In this document: positions 9,832 to 42,380 of the stretch, one piece after another
Numbering within the stretch: position 1 is the first letter of the stretch
How the letters are laid out: each line of letters opens with the position of its first letter
From: Bacteroidia bacterium
GTDB taxonomy: Bacteria > Bacteroidota > Bacteroidia > SXHM01
NCBI GenBank assembly: GCA_020054035.1
Contig: JAGVLY010000086.1
Coordinates: 1-46,731, forward strand
DNA length: 46,731 bases
Direction: 5' to 3'
Translations under genes and position numbers: made by a program
Notes under the pieces: generated by a model
Told to the model about the DNA's origin: nothing
Seen by the model: the letters and a program-made list of their open reading frames with translations, nothing else
The model's database searches: none

Positions 9832-11703
9832 CTACCATTTCATCAGCTTGTAGCTGCTGCTGAAGTTTTGGGTTGTTACATTCGTCAAATAAATTCCTGA
9901 AGAAAGGTTTTTAGGCGAGATCTTATACTCCAGAGAACCTGAAAATGATTCAGAAAAGATAATTCTTCCGGTTACATCAATCAATTCTGCTATTCCTGTT
10001 TGCGGAGAATTAAATCTCAATTCGGCACTACTGGAACCCTCTGCAAATCCAATACTGTTTATAAGCCTTACATCAGTATTGCCGGTATTATTTTCATGTA
10101 TTCCAATGCCGCAACCGCTAAAACCACGCTGATCAAGAAAATAAGATACTGTATAAACGTGCTGGGCGCTATTAAATGACTGGGCGCTTTGCAGAAGCAA
10201 ACAGGCTGCATCGTTCATAGTGATATTAGTTGCCAGATTATACATCGCTTCAATTAATATTTCATCGGCTGCCTCTCTTCCTATAGCATCCATAATTTGC
10301 ATCATGGTTGATGACCAAATCTCGGCATCTTTGTATAAATTGCTTTGTAAATCTTCGGGATAATGCTTGCTGCTTTCAACTACGCGACCATTCCAGAATT
10401 CATTGTGTCCGTCCCACGAAAAAATTTTCTCCCAGTTAAATGAGTTAATGGATTTAGAATACGAAGCTGCAAAATAATCTCCTATGGCTTCATCCAGTGC
10501 AGTTCGCTCTATGCCTTGATTAGTGCTCGGTGCAGCGGAATAAGAAATTGCATGGCCATATTCATGAATGATCACATCTGCATCTTCGGCATCATCTACT
10601 CCACCTTCACCAAAAGTTAAACGGGGACTGGGAGTTGATGAAAAGTTTGAATTATCAGCCCCGCCCATTCCATGTGCATCAACCAATATAGGGTAATCTA
10701 CAATATTATTAAACCCTAATGATTGAATATAATCATGATAAACATTAATATGGTAAAAAGCATTTACATCTTCAAAACCATCTTGTGAGCGCGTAAATTG
10801 AAAATCAGGGGTAAGACTTGTAACGGGAACAATATCAGGAATTGAATGATTATTAATCAAACAATACAGGCTTTCCAATTTAAACGTATCGTTTTCAAAC
10901 GCAACATCAATAGTAACCTGCTGGCGCTGCATATTCAACTGTGAAATATCTGCATCCGAAGCATCTTCATAAGGCGTTCCGTAAGTAACACCTGCTGTGG
11001 TAAGCGGATCGGGGTTAAACACTCTTGCAAGTGCAGGAGTATCTACATCATGAACTCTATTATTATTGAAATAATTATTCATGTCGCGTTCGTAAACAAT
11101 CATCTGTTCATCATTAATAACCAACTCAAAGAAATTACCTTTTTTATCCCACAGTTCAATACGTGAAGCTGGTATAAGTCTTGGTCCAAGATCAAAATAT
11201 AAATCCTCTATAAAGATCTTAACAATGTCGTTTTCTTCCTGATAAATTGATTTAATAATATCATAACAATCATCTGTATCCGGAAATTTTCCTGCCGGTG
11301 TTTCCACAATATGATAGGTATTATCAAACAGCGAAATAATGTTTCCGCTTTTATCTAAATTAATTTTTACTGTGCCGCGGTATATAGGTTTTCCTTGATA
11401 ATTCTGGCGATACAAATAATGAAAACCTGTTTTACTTTGTTTCCCTTCAAGGTATTCAACAGAAAAATCAGCGCCTCTTAAATTAGGAATAGCTGAAAGC
11501 AAATATTCTTTGACAAAAGCAGTATCAGTATTTTCAATTTTGCCGGAATTAAAAGAGGAAACAGCTTTACGCACATCAACCGGATGCGGTAATCGGCTTC
11601 CCATTCCGTCATTTATTTTTTGCCCGAAACTGAGAATCGGAAAAATTAGAACAATAAAAGCTATTAAGGCTGATACGAATTTACGATCGTTACTTTTTTG
11701 CAC
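9832..11703 (-). CDS. Secreted M36/M4-like metallopeptidase with T9SS sorting domain
   Basis: A zinc protease exported through the outer membrane. Order: signal peptide (1-28, ending LSFGQ), an FTP-type propeptide (about 50-200) that would keep it inactive, the catalytic domain with VFNPDPLTTAGVTYGTPYED near 228-247, the HEYGH zinc motif (His380, Glu381, His384) and the third ligand Glu405 in LDEAIGDYF, and a C-terminal sorting domain (about 545-623: ELIDVTGRIIFSESF, SSGIYLTNVT, YKLMKW). The start is GTG at 11701-11703; no in-frame ATG precedes the mature protein. It is the last gene of a probable operon, 12 bp after the M28 peptidase, so the three secreted products may act together on protein or peptide substrates. 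Confidence 0.9.
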   Translation of the reverse strand: MQKSNDRKFVSALIAFIVLIFPILSFGQKINDGMGSRLPHPVDVRKAVSSFNSGKIENTDTAFVKEYLLSAIPNLRGADFSVEYLEGKQSKTGFHYLYRQNYQGKPIYRGTVKINLDKSGNIISLFDNTYHIVETPAGKFPDTDDCYDIIKSIYQEENDIVKIFIEDLYFDLGPRLIPASRIELWDKKGNFFELVINDEQMIVYERDMNNYFNNNRVHDVDTPALARVFNPDPLTTAGVTYGTPYEDASDADISQLNMQRQQVTIDVAFENDTFKLESLYCLINNHSIPDIVPVTSLTPDFQFTRSQDGFEDVNAFYHINVYHDYIQSLGFNNIVDYPILVDAHGMGGADNSNFSSTPSPRLTFGEGGVDDAEDADVIIHEYGHAISYSAAPSTNQGIERTALDEAIGDYFAASYSKSINSFNWEKIFSWDGHNEFWNGRVVESSKHYPEDLQSNLYKDAEIWSSTMMQIMDAIGREAADEILIEAMYNLATNITMNDAACLLLQSAQSFNSAQHVYTVSYFLDQRGFSGCGIGIHENNTGNTDVRLINSIGFAEGSSSAELRFNSPQTGIAELIDVTGRIIFSESFSGSLEYKISPKNLSSGIYLTNVTTQNFSSSYKLMKW

Positions 11704-20143: not shown

Positions 20144-20776
20144 ATGGACAAAAAATTAATTTTCCGTACAGGATTTTCAGTATTGCTCTCTATCCTTTTT
20201 TTTACTGCAAGCGCTGCTATTCATGAAGTAATGGTTTCAAGCAACCAATTCAATCCAAACTCCTTAAATGTAAATGTTGGAGACACTGTACGTTTTATGT
20301 GGATGAATGGAAGTCATACCACTACATCAGTAAGTATCCCAGTAGGGGCAGCAACTTGGGACTCCCCTATGACCAGCAGCGTTTCGCAATTTGATTATAA
20401 AGTAACCGTTGCTGGAAGCTATGGCTATAAATGCACACCACATGCCTTAGGTGGTATGGTTGGGTCTTTTACCGCAAGCGGCACTACAGGCATTGACCTT
20501 GGTGATGTAATCAACTTAACTTCACTTTATCCTAATCCGTTCAGCAACGAACTCTTTATTGAGCAAGGAAACGAACAACCTGAATACACTCAGATTTCTA
20601 TTTCAGATATTTTAGGCAAACAAATAAAAAGCATCACGATTGAGAGTCTTTCTGTTGTATCAATTGGCAAAAGAAGAATTGATGTTGGTGAACTTCCGAA
20701 GGGAATTTACTTCGTAACGCTGAAAGGCAACGGAGCAAAAGCAAAGACTATCCGCTTAGTTAAGGAAGGTGTCTAA
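20144..20776 (+). CDS. Secreted cupredoxin with T9SS sorting domain
   Basis: A blue-copper-like protein of 210 aa. The signal peptide (1-25) ends FTASAA. Residues 26-112 are a plastocyanin/azurin-type cupredoxin: VMVSSNQFNPNSLNVNVGDT, then the copper ligands His58 (GSHTT), Cys97 (YKCTPH), His100 and Met105 (GGMVG). Residues 130-210 are a type A T9SS sorting domain (LYPNPFSNELFIE, SISDILGKQIKS, LPKGIYFVTLKG, KTIRLVKEG). It should be exported to the cell surface or medium, where it may carry electrons or hold copper. It is a single gene, divergent from trmH and convergent with the transglutaminase-like gene. Confidence 0.9.
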   Translation: MDKKLIFRTGFSVLLSILFFTASAAIHEVMVSSNQFNPNSLNVNVGDTVRFMWMNGSHTTTSVSIPVGAATWDSPMTSSVSQFDYKVTVAGSYGYKCTPHALGGMVGSFTASGTTGIDLGDVINLTSLYPNPFSNELFIEQGNEQPEYTQISISDILGKQIKSITIESLSVVSIGKRRIDVGELPKGIYFVTLKGNGAKAKTIRLVKEGV

Positions 20777-24220: not shown

Positions 24221-26014
24221 TTATTTAATCACAACCGTTGTGTTGCCTTTTTCCATGCCATCTTCAGTAAGTGTACATAAGTAATTACCCGCTCTCTGCT
24301 TTGAAACATCAACTGTAAAACCGCTTGTGGTGATGTCTGTCTTTGTAAGAATTACTTTTCCCGAAATATCATACAACGTGAACACATAGTTTGCTCCCTG
24401 TTTAATTTCTGTGAACTGAATAGTTATAAGATTGGATGCCGGATTAGGATACACTTCCAGGCGATTGTACTTTTTTGTGCCTGCCGTTTCTTTTACTCCC
24501 GCCACAAAACCATCTTCAAAAGTCCAACAGTTGAAAACGGTGCCCTCGTTGTCAACAATGCACATACGCACTGAATCATTTCCGAATATTTCCACTCTTC
24601 CGAAACTGGTGTGGAAATTATTATTTCCTAATCCGCTGCCACCTTTGTTCCAGAGTGAATCCAGCACGGGTGGCTGACCTATTAGTGAGCCCACCGAGTC
24701 CATAACATGGTACAGTTTTATTTTACTTTCATCCACCCCCATAGCCGAAGAATTGAATTCAGGTATTCCTGAATTGGTGCCGTCATCCATTGCTGAGGTG
24801 TGTGTATCTCCCGAGAGCAAGATCACATTACGGATATTATTATTTCTGATAAAATGAATGAGTGTATCCTGATCGGCCGGAAAACCTGGCCAGCCATCGG
24901 CAAAGCCTGTTGCCATGGTCATGCCACTGCCACCGCTGCCGCCTATGTCTAAAGTGTTGCGCTGAAATCCAAGCCCCACATTTATCACACGTTTCAATGC
25001 TTTGTTAAACGTTGTTCCCGAGAGCAGGAACTTCCATTTTGCAGTAGAATTTTGCAATCCGTTCAGCAGCCATTGCATTTGTGTTGTACCCAGTATGGTG
25101 TGTCCGGGCAGAGGCGAAAATTCCCAGGGGAAACTTACATCGGTGCTGTCGTAATAAAAGGCTTCGTTGTTGGGCGAACGTGAGCTGCGGTTGTCGAGGA
25201 AAAAGAAATCGGCATTGCCCACCGTAAACTTATGATACAAACCCTGCGAAGTGTCAACCGCACTGTAGCCCGGAAAATAATCCAGCCAGCCGTTGATGGA
25301 GTTGATGCGCTCGTGCGCACCAAGCGGTGCATCAATCAAAACGGTTTCCAATCCGTTGGGGCCGGTGTAGGTAGCCTCCAATGATTGCGTGTTCATAGAA
25401 CTGTTGTTATCGGTATAGTCATGGTCGTCATACACGTATGCAAGAGGTATAGAACGCAGGATAGGAGCTATTCCCGGATAGGAATATTTAGCATGGTAAG
25501 ACGCTGTTACATAATCAAAGTCTTCAGAGAATTCATCGGCTGCATCGGGGTAAGTAAAATCACCCAACTGAATAAACAGATCAGGCTGCTGAGAAGCCAT
25601 AGCAGAAAAAAGCGGTGTCATATCACTACCTTTCATGCAGGAGCCAAATGCAAAGGAAAAATCTGTGGCCGCGCCTGGTTGCGGAAAGGTGGTGAACGAA
25701 GATACAACCGTATCCTGCTGCTGATTTACAAAATAGCGGCAGTAGTAAAGCGTATTAGGTTGAAGTCCGTTTACGGTAATAATAGCGCTGGTATCTTTTA
25801 ATGTTCTTAAGCTATCATTAAAGGAAATTGGGTTGCTGAAGCCGGCATCGGTATCTAATTGAACCTGCACATCGCCTGCCTGATTGCTGCGGATAAAAAT
25901 GCGCGCAGAAACATTGGTTACTGCACCGGCAACAGGGCCGAACAAGATATTCTGGGCGGAAGCAGTGAGAAGGTAAGAGAGTGAGAAAGTGAGAAAGAGA
26001 ATTGTTTTGTTCAT
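24221..26014 (-). CDS. PhoD-like phosphatase with T9SS sorting domain
   Basis: A secreted metallophosphoesterase of the alkaline phosphatase D family, 597 aa. Signal peptide MNKTILFLTFSLSYLLTASA; an N-terminal fibronectin-like domain (about 25-115, VSARIFIRSNQAGDVQVQLD); then the catalytic part with FSFAFGSCMKGSD, LFIQLGDFTYPDA, YVYDDHDYTDNNS and ILLSGDTHTSAMDD, which supply the metal ligands. The last 75 residues are a T9SS sorting domain (LEVYPNPASNLITIQF, YDISGKVILTKTD, GNYLCTLTEDG). It would release phosphate from organic phosphate outside the cell. The signal-peptide DNA is 39/40 identical to that of the gene at 27751, in inverted orientation. Confidence 0.9.
   Translation of the reverse strand: MNKTILFLTFSLSYLLTASAQNILFGPVAGAVTNVSARIFIRSNQAGDVQVQLDTDAGFSNPISFNDSLRTLKDTSAIITVNGLQPNTLYYCRYFVNQQQDTVVSSFTTFPQPGAATDFSFAFGSCMKGSDMTPLFSAMASQQPDLFIQLGDFTYPDAADEFSEDFDYVTASYHAKYSYPGIAPILRSIPLAYVYDDHDYTDNNSSMNTQSLEATYTGPNGLETVLIDAPLGAHERINSINGWLDYFPGYSAVDTSQGLYHKFTVGNADFFFLDNRSSRSPNNEAFYYDSTDVSFPWEFSPLPGHTILGTTQMQWLLNGLQNSTAKWKFLLSGTTFNKALKRVINVGLGFQRNTLDIGGSGGSGMTMATGFADGWPGFPADQDTLIHFIRNNNIRNVILLSGDTHTSAMDDGTNSGIPEFNSSAMGVDESKIKLYHVMDSVGSLIGQPPVLDSLWNKGGSGLGNNNFHTSFGRVEIFGNDSVRMCIVDNEGTVFNCWTFEDGFVAGVKETAGTKKYNRLEVYPNPASNLITIQFTEIKQGANYVFTLYDISGKVILTKTDITTSGFTVDVSKQRAGNYLCTLTEDGMEKGNTTVVIK
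25965..26004. repeat. 40-bp inverted repeat, left copy
   Basis: Encodes part of the PhoD-like signal peptide. Its reverse complement matches 27761-27800 at 39 of 40 bases. Both are rich in the word CTTTCTCA. Confidence 0.9.
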
Positions 26015-38665: not shown

Positions 38666-41600
38666 ATGCAAAAACACATACTCTATATTCTGTTTTTTCT
38701 GTCTGCATTTTCAGGCTTTGCCCAAAAATACGACCCGCTCAATAAGCCCAACACATACCGCAATAAAGACAATCCAAACTACTGGAAAAACAAAATACCT
38801 TTTCCGGGCTATTGGCAGCAGGATGTGTATTACAACATCAAAGCTGAACTTGATGAGAAGTCGCATGTAATTGACGGATTTGAAGAACTGACCTATTGGA
38901 ACAATTCGCCCGACACGCTCTCGTATGTATTCTTTCACCTTTACCAAAATGCTTTTGTAAAAGGTTCGTACAACGAAAATGTAAACCTTAACAATGGGGC
39001 GAAACCCTACTTTGGAGTTTATGAAAGCATGGGGCTGGGAACTCTGGTTGAAATGATTGAAACCAATGGAAAGGAGCTGAAATCTGAATTAGACAACACT
39101 ATTTTAAAAGTATATCTGAATGAACCGCTTAAGCCCGGGCAAAACATCACCTTCAACATCAAATTCAAAACATTTTTCGATTCAGGAAGCCTGAGACGCA
39201 GAATGAAAACTTTCAACGCTTACGGCTACAAACATTTTGACGGAGTGCACTGGTATCCGCGCATTTCTGTGTATGACCGTAAGTTTGGATGGGACACCGA
39301 CCAACATCTAGGTAAAGAATTTTACGGTGATTTTGGAGGATTTGATGTGGAACTGACACTCGCAAATAACTATGTAGTTGAAGCCACAGGGAATTTACTC
39401 AACCGTGATGAAGTTCTTCCCCCAGAACTCCGCAAGAAATTAGACATCACAAATTTTAAGGACAAACCATGGGATGAAAAGCCTTCCGTAATCACGCCCT
39501 ACGACAGCACGCTGAAAAAAACATGGAAATACCATGCAGAAAATGTTCATGACTTTGCCTTTACAGCCGACCCAACTTACCGTATCGGTGAGTATGAGTG
39601 GAATGGTGTTACTTGCATTGCAGTAGTTCAGGAATCTCACGCATCGCGTTGGCAAACTGCGGCTGAATATGCAGCTAAATGTATTCAGATTTATTCTGAA
39701 GATATCGGCATGTATGTCTATCACAAAATGGTGGTAGCTGATGCCCGCGATGGCATGGAATATCCCATGCTTACACTGGATGGCGGACAGGAGCCAGACT
39801 TTCGCGGTTTATTTGCCCACGAGATAGGGCACAATTGGTTTTTCGGGCAAGTGGGAAGTAATGAAACCTATCGTGCAGCATTGGATGAAGGGTTTACACA
39901 ATTTCTTACAGCTTGGGCCTTGCGAAAAACAGATGGTGATTTTGAAATAAAGAATCAACCAAAATCAAAATACATCAGGCGGTTTAAAAAACCAGAAGAA
40001 GTGCTAAATAGCAATGTTTACAATGGTTATATGTTTGATGCGGTGAAAGGTGAGGACAAACCATTAAATACACATTCAGATTATTTTGAAGGCGCTCTTG
40101 GTCATGGTGGCGGCTACAGGCATGTATATTACAAAACTGCCACGATGTTATATAACTTGCAATACGTGTTGGGCGATGAACTTTTTCTGAAAGCGATGCA
40201 GCACTATTTCAGTCAGTGGAAAATTGCGCATCCATACATGGAAGATTTTCGCAACTCCATTATTCAATACACCAAAGTTGATTTAAACTGGTTCTTTGAC
40301 CAATGGCTTGAAACCACTAAAAATATTGACTACGCAATAAAATGTATAAAGAAGGGAGAGAAAGAGAATGAATACATCATCACCTTTGAACGCACAGGCA
40401 AAATGCAGATGCCCATTGACTTTCAGGTATTATCAAAAGACAGTGTTGTTCAGAATTTTCACATACCTAATAACTGGTTTATCAAAGAAACCGATGCTAC
40501 TGTTTTACCAAAATGGCTGGGGTGGGAAAAGTTAAATCCTACCTACGAAGCGCGTGTTATTGTTCCTGAAGGCATAAAAGATATTGTGATTGACCCGAGC
40601 AAACGACTTGCAGATGTGAACATGCTTGACAACAGCAAAAAATTACCTGTTGATTTTGCTTTCGACTCACAGGTTTACAATACACCCGACTGGAGAAGCT
40701 ATGAAGTAAAAGCCCGTCCCGACTTGTGGTATAATGCTTATGATGGTGTAAAAATCGGCATTCATGTGAATGGAAACCATATGAATTACCGCCACATTTT
40801 TGGAGCAACAGTCTGGTTTAACACCGGACTTGGTCAGGCAAAATTTGACTCCACTGTTGCGCTGAACGGATTTGATGTCTTGTCATTTATTTTAAACTAC
40901 AAAACCAGTTTAGACAAGATTGGAAAGAACGCGTGGTTTAACCTACAAGCAAAGGCATTAGATGGAATGTATGGGTTAAATTTCGGGATAGAAAAATGGG
41001 ATAAACTGATGAAGAACCTTTTTTATTTTCAATTTAAAACCATGCTTCGTCCTGACCAAAGCGACAAAGCATACCTGATGTATCCAAATGAATGGGGAAT
41101 TGGAAAACTCAACAACACCTTTGCTTTCGGCATAAAACGGAACTTCAGCTACAGCAATGGTGGTGGGAACATGAACCTTGAAATGAAAGCACCAGCTCCG
41201 GGAAGTGCATACAGCTTCACCAAAGTTTCGCTAAACGTGGTAAACAAATTTTCGGTGAGTAAATTTGGATTCAACACCCGCTTCTTTGCACAATACGGCA
41301 CAGGCAGAAGAGTTGCACCGGAATCTGCGTTATATCTGGCAGGTGCAAATCCTGAAGAAATGATTGACAATAAATACACCCGTTCGCGCGGCTTTATTCC
41401 ATATGAATGGGCGGGAAATTATGGAGAAACCACTAACCATTTTCAACAAGGCGGTGGGTTAAATCTTCGTGGCTATGCAGGTTATTTAGTTCCTTACCTC
41501 AAGAACAATGGTGAACTTGTTATGACTTACCGCAGAACCTCAGGCGCGGCTGTAAACCTTGAAATTGAGTTCGACCGCTTTCTAAAAATCCGCCCGAAAC

Positions 41601-41872
41601 TTATTATGAACACCATACAAATTAAAACCTATCTCTTTGCCGATGCAGGAATTATTAACTCCAACCAACAAGGCAACAAGCTGCATTTTGCCGATTTCAG
41701 GATGGATGCCGGTGTTGGCACGGCTCTTGTAATCAAAAAGTGGGGCGCTCTTCAAATGGCAAAACCACTTACTATACGATTTGATATGCCCTTCTTCTTA
41801 AATCATACACCTGCAGTTGAACCGGACTATTTTAAATTCCGATGGGTAGTGGGTATTAACAGAGCTTTTTAA
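38666..41872 (+). CDS. M1 metallopeptidase fused to Omp85-like outer-membrane barrel
   Basis: A 1068 aa protein, much longer than ordinary M1 enzymes of its phylum (about 600-650 aa). Signal peptide (1-20, ending FSGFAQ); M1 N-terminal beta domain (about 30-300); catalytic domain with DGMEYPML, corresponding to the GAMEN substrate motif, HEIGH (His385, Glu386, His389) and third zinc ligand Glu408 in ALDEGFTQF. After about residue 640 it becomes beta-strand-rich to the end, with GLNLRGYAGY (Arg935-Gly936-Tyr937), the motif found in loop 6 of Omp85 barrels, KTYLFADAG, and a C-terminal strand RWVVGINRAF ending in Phe. I read this as a peptidase tied to its own outer-membrane barrel. Whether the enzyme faces outside or the periplasm is open. 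Confidence 0.87.
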   Translation: MQKHILYILFFLSAFSGFAQKYDPLNKPNTYRNKDNPNYWKNKIPFPGYWQQDVYYNIKAELDEKSHVIDGFEELTYWNNSPDTLSYVFFHLYQNAFVKGSYNENVNLNNGAKPYFGVYESMGLGTLVEMIETNGKELKSELDNTILKVYLNEPLKPGQNITFNIKFKTFFDSGSLRRRMKTFNAYGYKHFDGVHWYPRISVYDRKFGWDTDQHLGKEFYGDFGGFDVELTLANNYVVEATGNLLNRDEVLPPELRKKLDITNFKDKPWDEKPSVITPYDSTLKKTWKYHAENVHDFAFTADPTYRIGEYEWNGVTCIAVVQESHASRWQTAAEYAAKCIQIYSEDIGMYVYHKMVVADARDGMEYPMLTLDGGQEPDFRGLFAHEIGHNWFFGQVGSNETYRAALDEGFTQFLTAWALRKTDGDFEIKNQPKSKYIRRFKKPEEVLNSNVYNGYMFDAVKGEDKPLNTHSDYFEGALGHGGGYRHVYYKTATMLYNLQYVLGDELFLKAMQHYFSQWKIAHPYMEDFRNSIIQYTKVDLNWFFDQWLETTKNIDYAIKCIKKGEKENEYIITFERTGKMQMPIDFQVLSKDSVVQNFHIPNNWFIKETDATVLPKWLGWEKLNPTYEARVIVPEGIKDIVIDPSKRLADVNMLDNSKKLPVDFAFDSQVYNTPDWRSYEVKARPDLWYNAYDGVKIGIHVNGNHMNYRHIFGATVWFNTGLGQAKFDSTVALNGFDVLSFILNYKTSLDKIGKNAWFNLQAKALDGMYGLNFGIEKWDKLMKNLFYFQFKTMLRPDQSDKAYLMYPNEWGIGKLNNTFAFGIKRNFSYSNGGGNMNLEMKAPAPGSAYSFTKVSLNVVNKFSVSKFGFNTRFFAQYGTGRRVAPESALYLAGANPEEMIDNKYTRSRGFIPYEWAGNYGETTNHFQQGGGLNLRGYAGYLVPYLKNNGELVMTYRRTSGAAVNLEIEFDRFLKIRPKLIMNTIQIKTYLFADAGIINSNQQGNKLHFADFRMDAGVGTALVIKKWGALQMAKPLTIRFDMPFFLNHTPAVEPDYFKFRWVVGINRAF

Positions 41873-41951: not shown

Positions 41952-42380
41952 ATGAGTAAACAACTCAGCATCTTAATCATTCTTTTAATCAGTGCGGCAA
42001 CTGTGTCGGCACAATCCATTGTAGGTAAATGGAAAACCATTGACGATGAAACAGGCAAACCAAAATCGGTAGTAGAGATTTTTGAAAAGAACGGAAAGGT
42101 TTACGGAAAAATCATCAAGCTATTCCGTGATCCGGGTGAAGAACAGGATCCTGTTTGCGACAAATGCGAAGACGACCGCAAGGGAAAAAAAGTTATCGGT
42201 TTGGAAATAATCCGTGATATGGAGAAAGATGGCAGCGAGTGGGAAGACGGAACAATTATGGATCCTAAGAAAGGAACTATTTATGATTGTAAACTATGGT
42301 TGGAAGGCGGAAATCTGAAAGTACGTGGCTATGTTTTGTTTATTTACAGAACACAGACCTGGTTGCCATATAAAGAATAG
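41952..42380 (+). CDS. DUF2147 protein
   Basis: A 142 aa secreted protein. Signal peptide MSKQLSILIILLISAATVSA, then the DUF2147 pattern: IVGKWKTIDDETGKPKSVVE, IFEKNGKVYGKIIKLFRDPG, a CDKCEDDRKGKKVIGLEII segment with two Cys, GTIMDPKKGTIYDCKLWLEG and a last LKVRGYVLFIYRTQTWLPY. The family has a lipocalin-like barrel; ligand and role are unknown. The in-frame ATG at 41910 would put 14 polar residues before the signal peptide, so the ATG at 41952 is chosen. An inverted repeat begins just after its stop and may end the transcript. Confidence 0.85.
   Translation: MSKQLSILIILLISAATVSAQSIVGKWKTIDDETGKPKSVVEIFEKNGKVYGKIIKLFRDPGEEQDPVCDKCEDDRKGKKVIGLEIIRDMEKDGSEWEDGTIMDPKKGTIYDCKLWLEGGNLKVRGYVLFIYRTQTWLPYKE

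Follow-up and report, generated by a model that had tools for sequence, protein, structure and literature searches.

An M1 zinc peptidase fused to an Omp85-superfamily barrel forms an old protein family in Bacteroidota

Introduction

In diderm bacteria, Omp85 proteins work at the outer membrane, where they insert other proteins or move them; both ends of their barrel lie in the periplasm. The BAM system of Bacteroidota differs from that of E. coli. PF00149, one of the domains joined to Omp85 barrels, is a metallophosphoesterase family, though it was called a metalloprotease in the 2014 survey of the superfamily. That survey (Heinz and Lithgow 2014; PMC4104836) distinguished ten Omp85 subfamilies, including patatin, WD40, lipoprotein, no-N-terminus, and "Metallo" (PF00149) types, and an M1 type is absent from its main text. 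The "Metallo" proteins, reported at the level of a genus, carry a metalloenzyme domain on an Omp85 barrel without POTRA domains, and the "noNterm" barrels lack both POTRA and enzyme domains. In PlpD and FplA (type Vd), a patatin domain lies N-terminal to an Omp85 barrel within one chain, and PlpD also has POTRA domains. BepA, an M48 zinc peptidase at the BAM complex, is a separate soluble protein.

The gene described here lies in a 46,731-nt stretch of DNA (the window; contig JAGVLY010000086.1 of the Bacteroidia bacterium assembly GCA_020054035.1) and encodes an M1 zinc peptidase and an Omp85-type barrel in a single chain. Its product shares with PlpD and FplA the position of the enzyme ahead of the barrel but differs from them in the enzyme itself, in the absence of POTRA domains, and in its phylum-wide occurrence in Bacteroidota. 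The "Metallo" subfamily also combines a metalloenzyme with a barrel lacking POTRA domains, but the domain in the present protein is M1 (PF01433). A likeness to BepA is proposed, in that each pairs a zinc peptidase with an Omp85 barrel beneath the outer membrane, although the two peptidases belong to different families. Enzyme-Omp85 fusions are thus known as a kind, and what is new is a fusion with a new enzyme and without POTRA domains. No description of an M1-Omp85 fusion was found in the literature searched, with subscription papers and annotation databases outside its scope; the barrel may already be visible in public AlphaFold models or annotation databases.

Results

The layout of the fusion protein, which ends in phenylalanine, is given in Table 1. 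Its full-length AlphaFold2 (AF2) model has a pLDDT of 88.8 and a pTM of 0.85. Only the linker separates the peptidase from the barrel, and there is no POTRA-like fold in the AF2 models.

Table 1. Features of the M1-Omp85 fusion gene, with nucleotide positions in the window.
Feature	Position	Strand	Basis
M1 peptidase-Omp85 barrel fusion gene	38666..41872	+	ORF, 1068 aa
Predicted Sec signal peptide, residues 1-20 (MQKHILYILFFLSAFSGFAQ), without lipobox Cys	38666..38725	+	Sequence; helix 2-16 in model
M1 N-terminal saddle domain, approx. residues 53-240	38822..39385	+	AF2 secondary structure; IRAP/ERAP fold match
M1 catalytic (thermolysin-like) domain, approx. residues 243-550	39392..40315	+	Pfam PF01433; AF2
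DGMEYPML, residues 362-369, variant of GxMEN substrate motif	39749..39772	+	Sequence, homologue alignment
HEIGH zinc motif, residues 385-389	39818..39832	+	Sequence, homologue alignment
Glu408, third zinc ligand (HEXXH-X18-E), within DEGF 407-410	39887..39889	+	Sequence, homologue alignment
Tyr488, invariant; aligns with the transition-state residue Tyr381 in E. coli PepN	40127..40129	+	Alignment
Ig-like beta domain III of M1, residues 551-656, end DPSKRLADVNMLDN	40316..40633	+	AF2 strands 556-642; M1-only relatives stop just past end motif
Ordered 22-residue linker 657-678, short strand 662-666	40634..40699	+	AF2
16-strand Omp85-type barrel, residues 679-1068	40700..41869	+	AF2; Foldseek; hhalign
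Barrel loop 6 (77 aa, residues 883-959), joining strands 11 and 12	41312..41542	+	AF2
LRGY, residues 934-937; Arg935 invariant	41465..41476	+	Sequence, homologue alignment
Glu966 on strand 12, invariant	41561..41563	+	Homologue alignment
FADAG (FxDxG), residues 991-995 on strand 13; Phe/Asp/Gly invariant	41636..41650	+	Homologue alignment, AF2

The N-terminal half contains the complete M1 zinc peptidase that the original prediction had recognized, with HEIGH, Glu408, and DGMEYPML all in place. Peptidase_M1 (PF01433) matches residues 382 to 547 (E = 4.7e-14; 52.9 bits against a curated cut-off of 27.7) and is the sole Pfam domain in the 1068-aa protein, which has neither a patatin-like domain nor PF00149. 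Across 76 full-length homologues, the zinc ligands (His385, His389, and Glu408), the general base Glu386, and Tyr488 are invariant, as are Gly363, Glu365, and Tyr366 of the GMEYP motif, suggesting that the M1 enzyme is probably active. GMEYP is a variant of the GxMEN exopeptidase motif, with tyrosine replacing asparagine, and the variant is conserved. The full-length model matches IRAP and ERAP in Foldseek comparisons. The fusion has the catalytic motifs and the saddle, catalytic, and Ig-like domains of PepN, ERAP, and IRAP but carries GMEYP for GAMEN and lacks the helical domain IV, in whose place the barrel stands. Aminopeptidase activity is predicted with considerable confidence.

That the C-terminal half is an Omp85-superfamily barrel, with the topology of this superfamily, is well supported. 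The barrel-like tail had been noticed originally through its LRGY and C-terminal phenylalanine, and it holds up as a pattern far beyond chance; the in-out alternation of strand hydropathy is 3.25, compared with 1.47 +/- 0.26 in shuffles. AF2 prediction of residues 646 to 1068, from an alignment of 90 sequences, yielded a barrel of exactly 16 strands (pLDDT 91.5) and not soluble beta domains. The longest loop holds LRGY, a variant also carried by the BamA of F. johnsoniae (PMC12611786), and the FxDxG motif falls on strand 13. Arg935, Glu966, Phe991, Asp993, and Gly995 are invariant among the 76 homologues, and 72 of them keep the C-terminal phenylalanine. With Omp85/TpsB barrels defined as in PMC4104836, the protein displays the 16-strand barrel at its C terminus, the loop-6 RGY/F, the strand-13 FxDxG, and similarity in both profile and fold.

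The best 50 PDB fold matches listed by Foldseek were all BamA or TamA (E values from 4e-10 to 3e-8), with moderate TM-scores (0.35 to 0.50) and 12 to 16% sequence identity. The fusion has the fold and both motifs in common with BamA and TamA, but its sequence identity to them is very low, and an M1 peptidase takes the place of their POTRA domains. The tail in the window had no Pfam or NCBIfam match even at an E value of 10. In profile-profile alignment (hhalign) it matched Bacteroidota Omp85 barrels with 96% probability (P = 4.3e-9), and both RGY and FxDAG lined up with those of the barrels. Controls consisting of FadL-type barrels and reversed profiles reached no more than 1%, and FadL barrels were rejected as kin of the tail. 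A profile built from close homologues only gave 57.6%, indicating that distant relatives matter for the match. PF01103 was matched by 1 of the 90 tails (3.8e-6), and a sequence search with the tail profile found no barrel among PDB chains. As neither the family libraries nor the PDB chains gave a hit for the tail in the window, its Omp85 kinship comes through profile-profile and fold comparison. The barrel goes unrecognized by profile libraries, which makes the family easy to overlook.

In a scan using one genome per species, at least 568 relatives were encoded, 80 of which were kept; nearly all of the 80 have the barrel, and the shortened ones stop at contig edges. An M1 relative occurs in 278 of the 396 genomes in a sample of the phylum, some in ORFs of about 1000 to 1200 aa and many in M1-only ORFs of about 600 to 730 aa. 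A query with the barrel alone had matches in 69 of 297 genomes. About 26 strong matches fell within long fused ORFs, and most of the remainder within ORFs of 400 to 440 aa that encode a stand-alone barrel. In the M1 tree, the M1-only proteins form essentially one nested cluster (midpoint rooting; one fused row lies among them, with weak support), so that a single loss of the barrel is more probable than repeated gains. The main groups of the M1 tree reappear in the barrel tree, where BamA-type proteins stand separately. The two halves are inherited together, and the fusion is old and spread across Bacteroidota.

Soluble M1-only relatives (L095, L097-L105, and L108-L112) have signal peptides, stop immediately past the RLADxxxxNN motif in the Ig-like domain, and seem to have lost the barrel. 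The loop-6 RGY is eroded (e.g., to LIGYG) in fused barrels from other classes of the phylum (L088, L091, L092, L106, and L107), and canonical VRGY is kept in L084, L085, L087, and L090. The fusion gene was present in all six other genomes of the genus that were searched, in one as a contig-edge fragment. The same six genomes encode a second M1 protein of about 1010 aa (L196-L201; also L168-L171, L177, and L178). In the class to which it belongs, the tail is distantly related and has lost RGY. When pooled, the tails of this class match distant fused tails at 97.7%; from the genus copies alone, the relation is not detectable.

The closest kin of the fusion barrel are stand-alone Omp85-like barrels of 400 to 440 aa with GGxNLRGY (L188-L193; e.g., L191:4673-5932), and in the barrel tree such stand-alone proteins belong to the same superclade. 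They lie next to a NUDIX gene and, in several cases, between it and an acetate kinase gene plus a gene for a large protein with caspase-like features recognized by eye; L193 has two tandem copies of the barrel. The possibility that stand-alone barrels are the other half of a gene split was rejected because they also occur in genomes that have the fusion and group in a clade of their own.

Upstream of the fusion gene lie rlmH, nadC, and a gene for a BrkB/YihY membrane protein (yihY), a synteny kept in part of the relatives, and downstream lies a DUF2147 gene; these neighbors point to no function. The DUF2147 protein, which is secreted, is encoded directly downstream (41955-42380 of the window) and occurs near the M1 gene in only 6 of the 80 relatives.

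The M1 domain precedes strand 1 of the barrel by way of the well-ordered linker, and strand 1 starts on the periplasmic side if the barrel is oriented like other Omp85 barrels, so the M1 domain would be periplasmic unless it were threaded through the lumen, which the 22-residue linker could in principle span. With the N terminus assigned to the periplasm, there are 156 loop residues on the outside and 45 turn residues on the inside, as expected. M1-only relatives are signal-peptide proteins without a type IX secretion system (T9SS) tail. A location of the M1 domain on the periplasmic side of the outer membrane is accordingly judged likely.

Discussion

The most economical view, which we favor with reasonable though not high confidence, is that the fusion is an outer-membrane-anchored periplasmic M1 peptidase. 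The protein would be exported by Sec and then folded into the outer membrane, where the 16-stranded barrel, locked by loop 6 (LRGY), would serve as its anchor. The M1 half would hang directly beneath the barrel on the periplasmic side, where BamA has its POTRA domains. The peptidase would most likely work along the inner face of the outer membrane, trimming peptides or polypeptides that have been damaged, and its role might be envelope quality control or peptide scavenging, substrates and role being suggested tentatively.

A more far-reaching proposal, to which we assign a rather low probability, is that these proteins are an unrecognized phylum-wide Omp85 class of Bacteroidota in which a peptidase substitutes for POTRA domains and the barrel is itself active, either handling client outer-membrane proteins or carrying cargo across the outer membrane, the cargo being peptides or the attached peptidase domain. 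A role in outer-membrane protein assembly or quality control is a narrower version of the anchored-peptidase view and compatible with it, but is considered unlikely. Here the barrel would engage client barrels and the M1 domain degrade failed ones, as if BamA and BepA were joined in a single chain. The barrel keeps the loop-6 and FxDxG motifs of Omp85 proteins, and BepA, a periplasmic zinc peptidase, acts on LptD at BamA (PMC8423444), both of which agree with such a role. Against it, most known M1 enzymes are exopeptidases, the soluble M1-only clade functions with no barrel, RGY is lost in some fused relatives, and there is no POTRA domain for client capture.

Slightly less probable again is self-export, in which the barrel would carry the M1 domain outward and leave the peptidase exposed on the cell surface. 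The original prediction had proposed such display by analogy with type Vd secretion, for which this mode was initially put forward. Omp85 barrels such as FhaC do translocate proteins, and the linker ahead of strand 1 is short and partly strand. But the linker is ordered, the first barrel strand, which follows the M1 domain, starts in the periplasm, and type Vd does not supply the precedent for surface secretion: work from 2024 on protease sensitivity, disulfide crosslinks, and lipids placed the patatin domain of PlpD in the periplasm, and no FplA was detected on the cell surface (PMC11116518). The prediction that display would occur without T9SS is beside the point: the host genome has 87 matches to the T9SS C-terminal sorting domain (TIGR04183), none of them within 38666-41872, so another route to the surface exists for host proteins. 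Other genes in the window carry these sorting domains at 20525-20767, 24257-24454, and 9838-10011.

Finally, the reading of the tail as a barrel of another outer-membrane class (FadL-like or porin) with LRGY present by chance, which could draw on the moderate TM-scores and the lack of a Pfam Omp85 match in the fusion protein, is highly improbable given that profile comparison gave 96% for Omp85 against 0.3% for FadL, that the best 50 fold matches listed are all Omp85, and that strand number, loop-6 position, and FxDxG all fit this superfamily.

The fusion represents a large family with a peptidase in the POTRA position and adds an enzyme class to the enzyme-Omp85 fusions. It provides a second case for asking whether the enzyme domains linked to Omp85 barrels reside in the periplasm or outside the cell, and it is a candidate outer-membrane quality-control protease in Bacteroidota.
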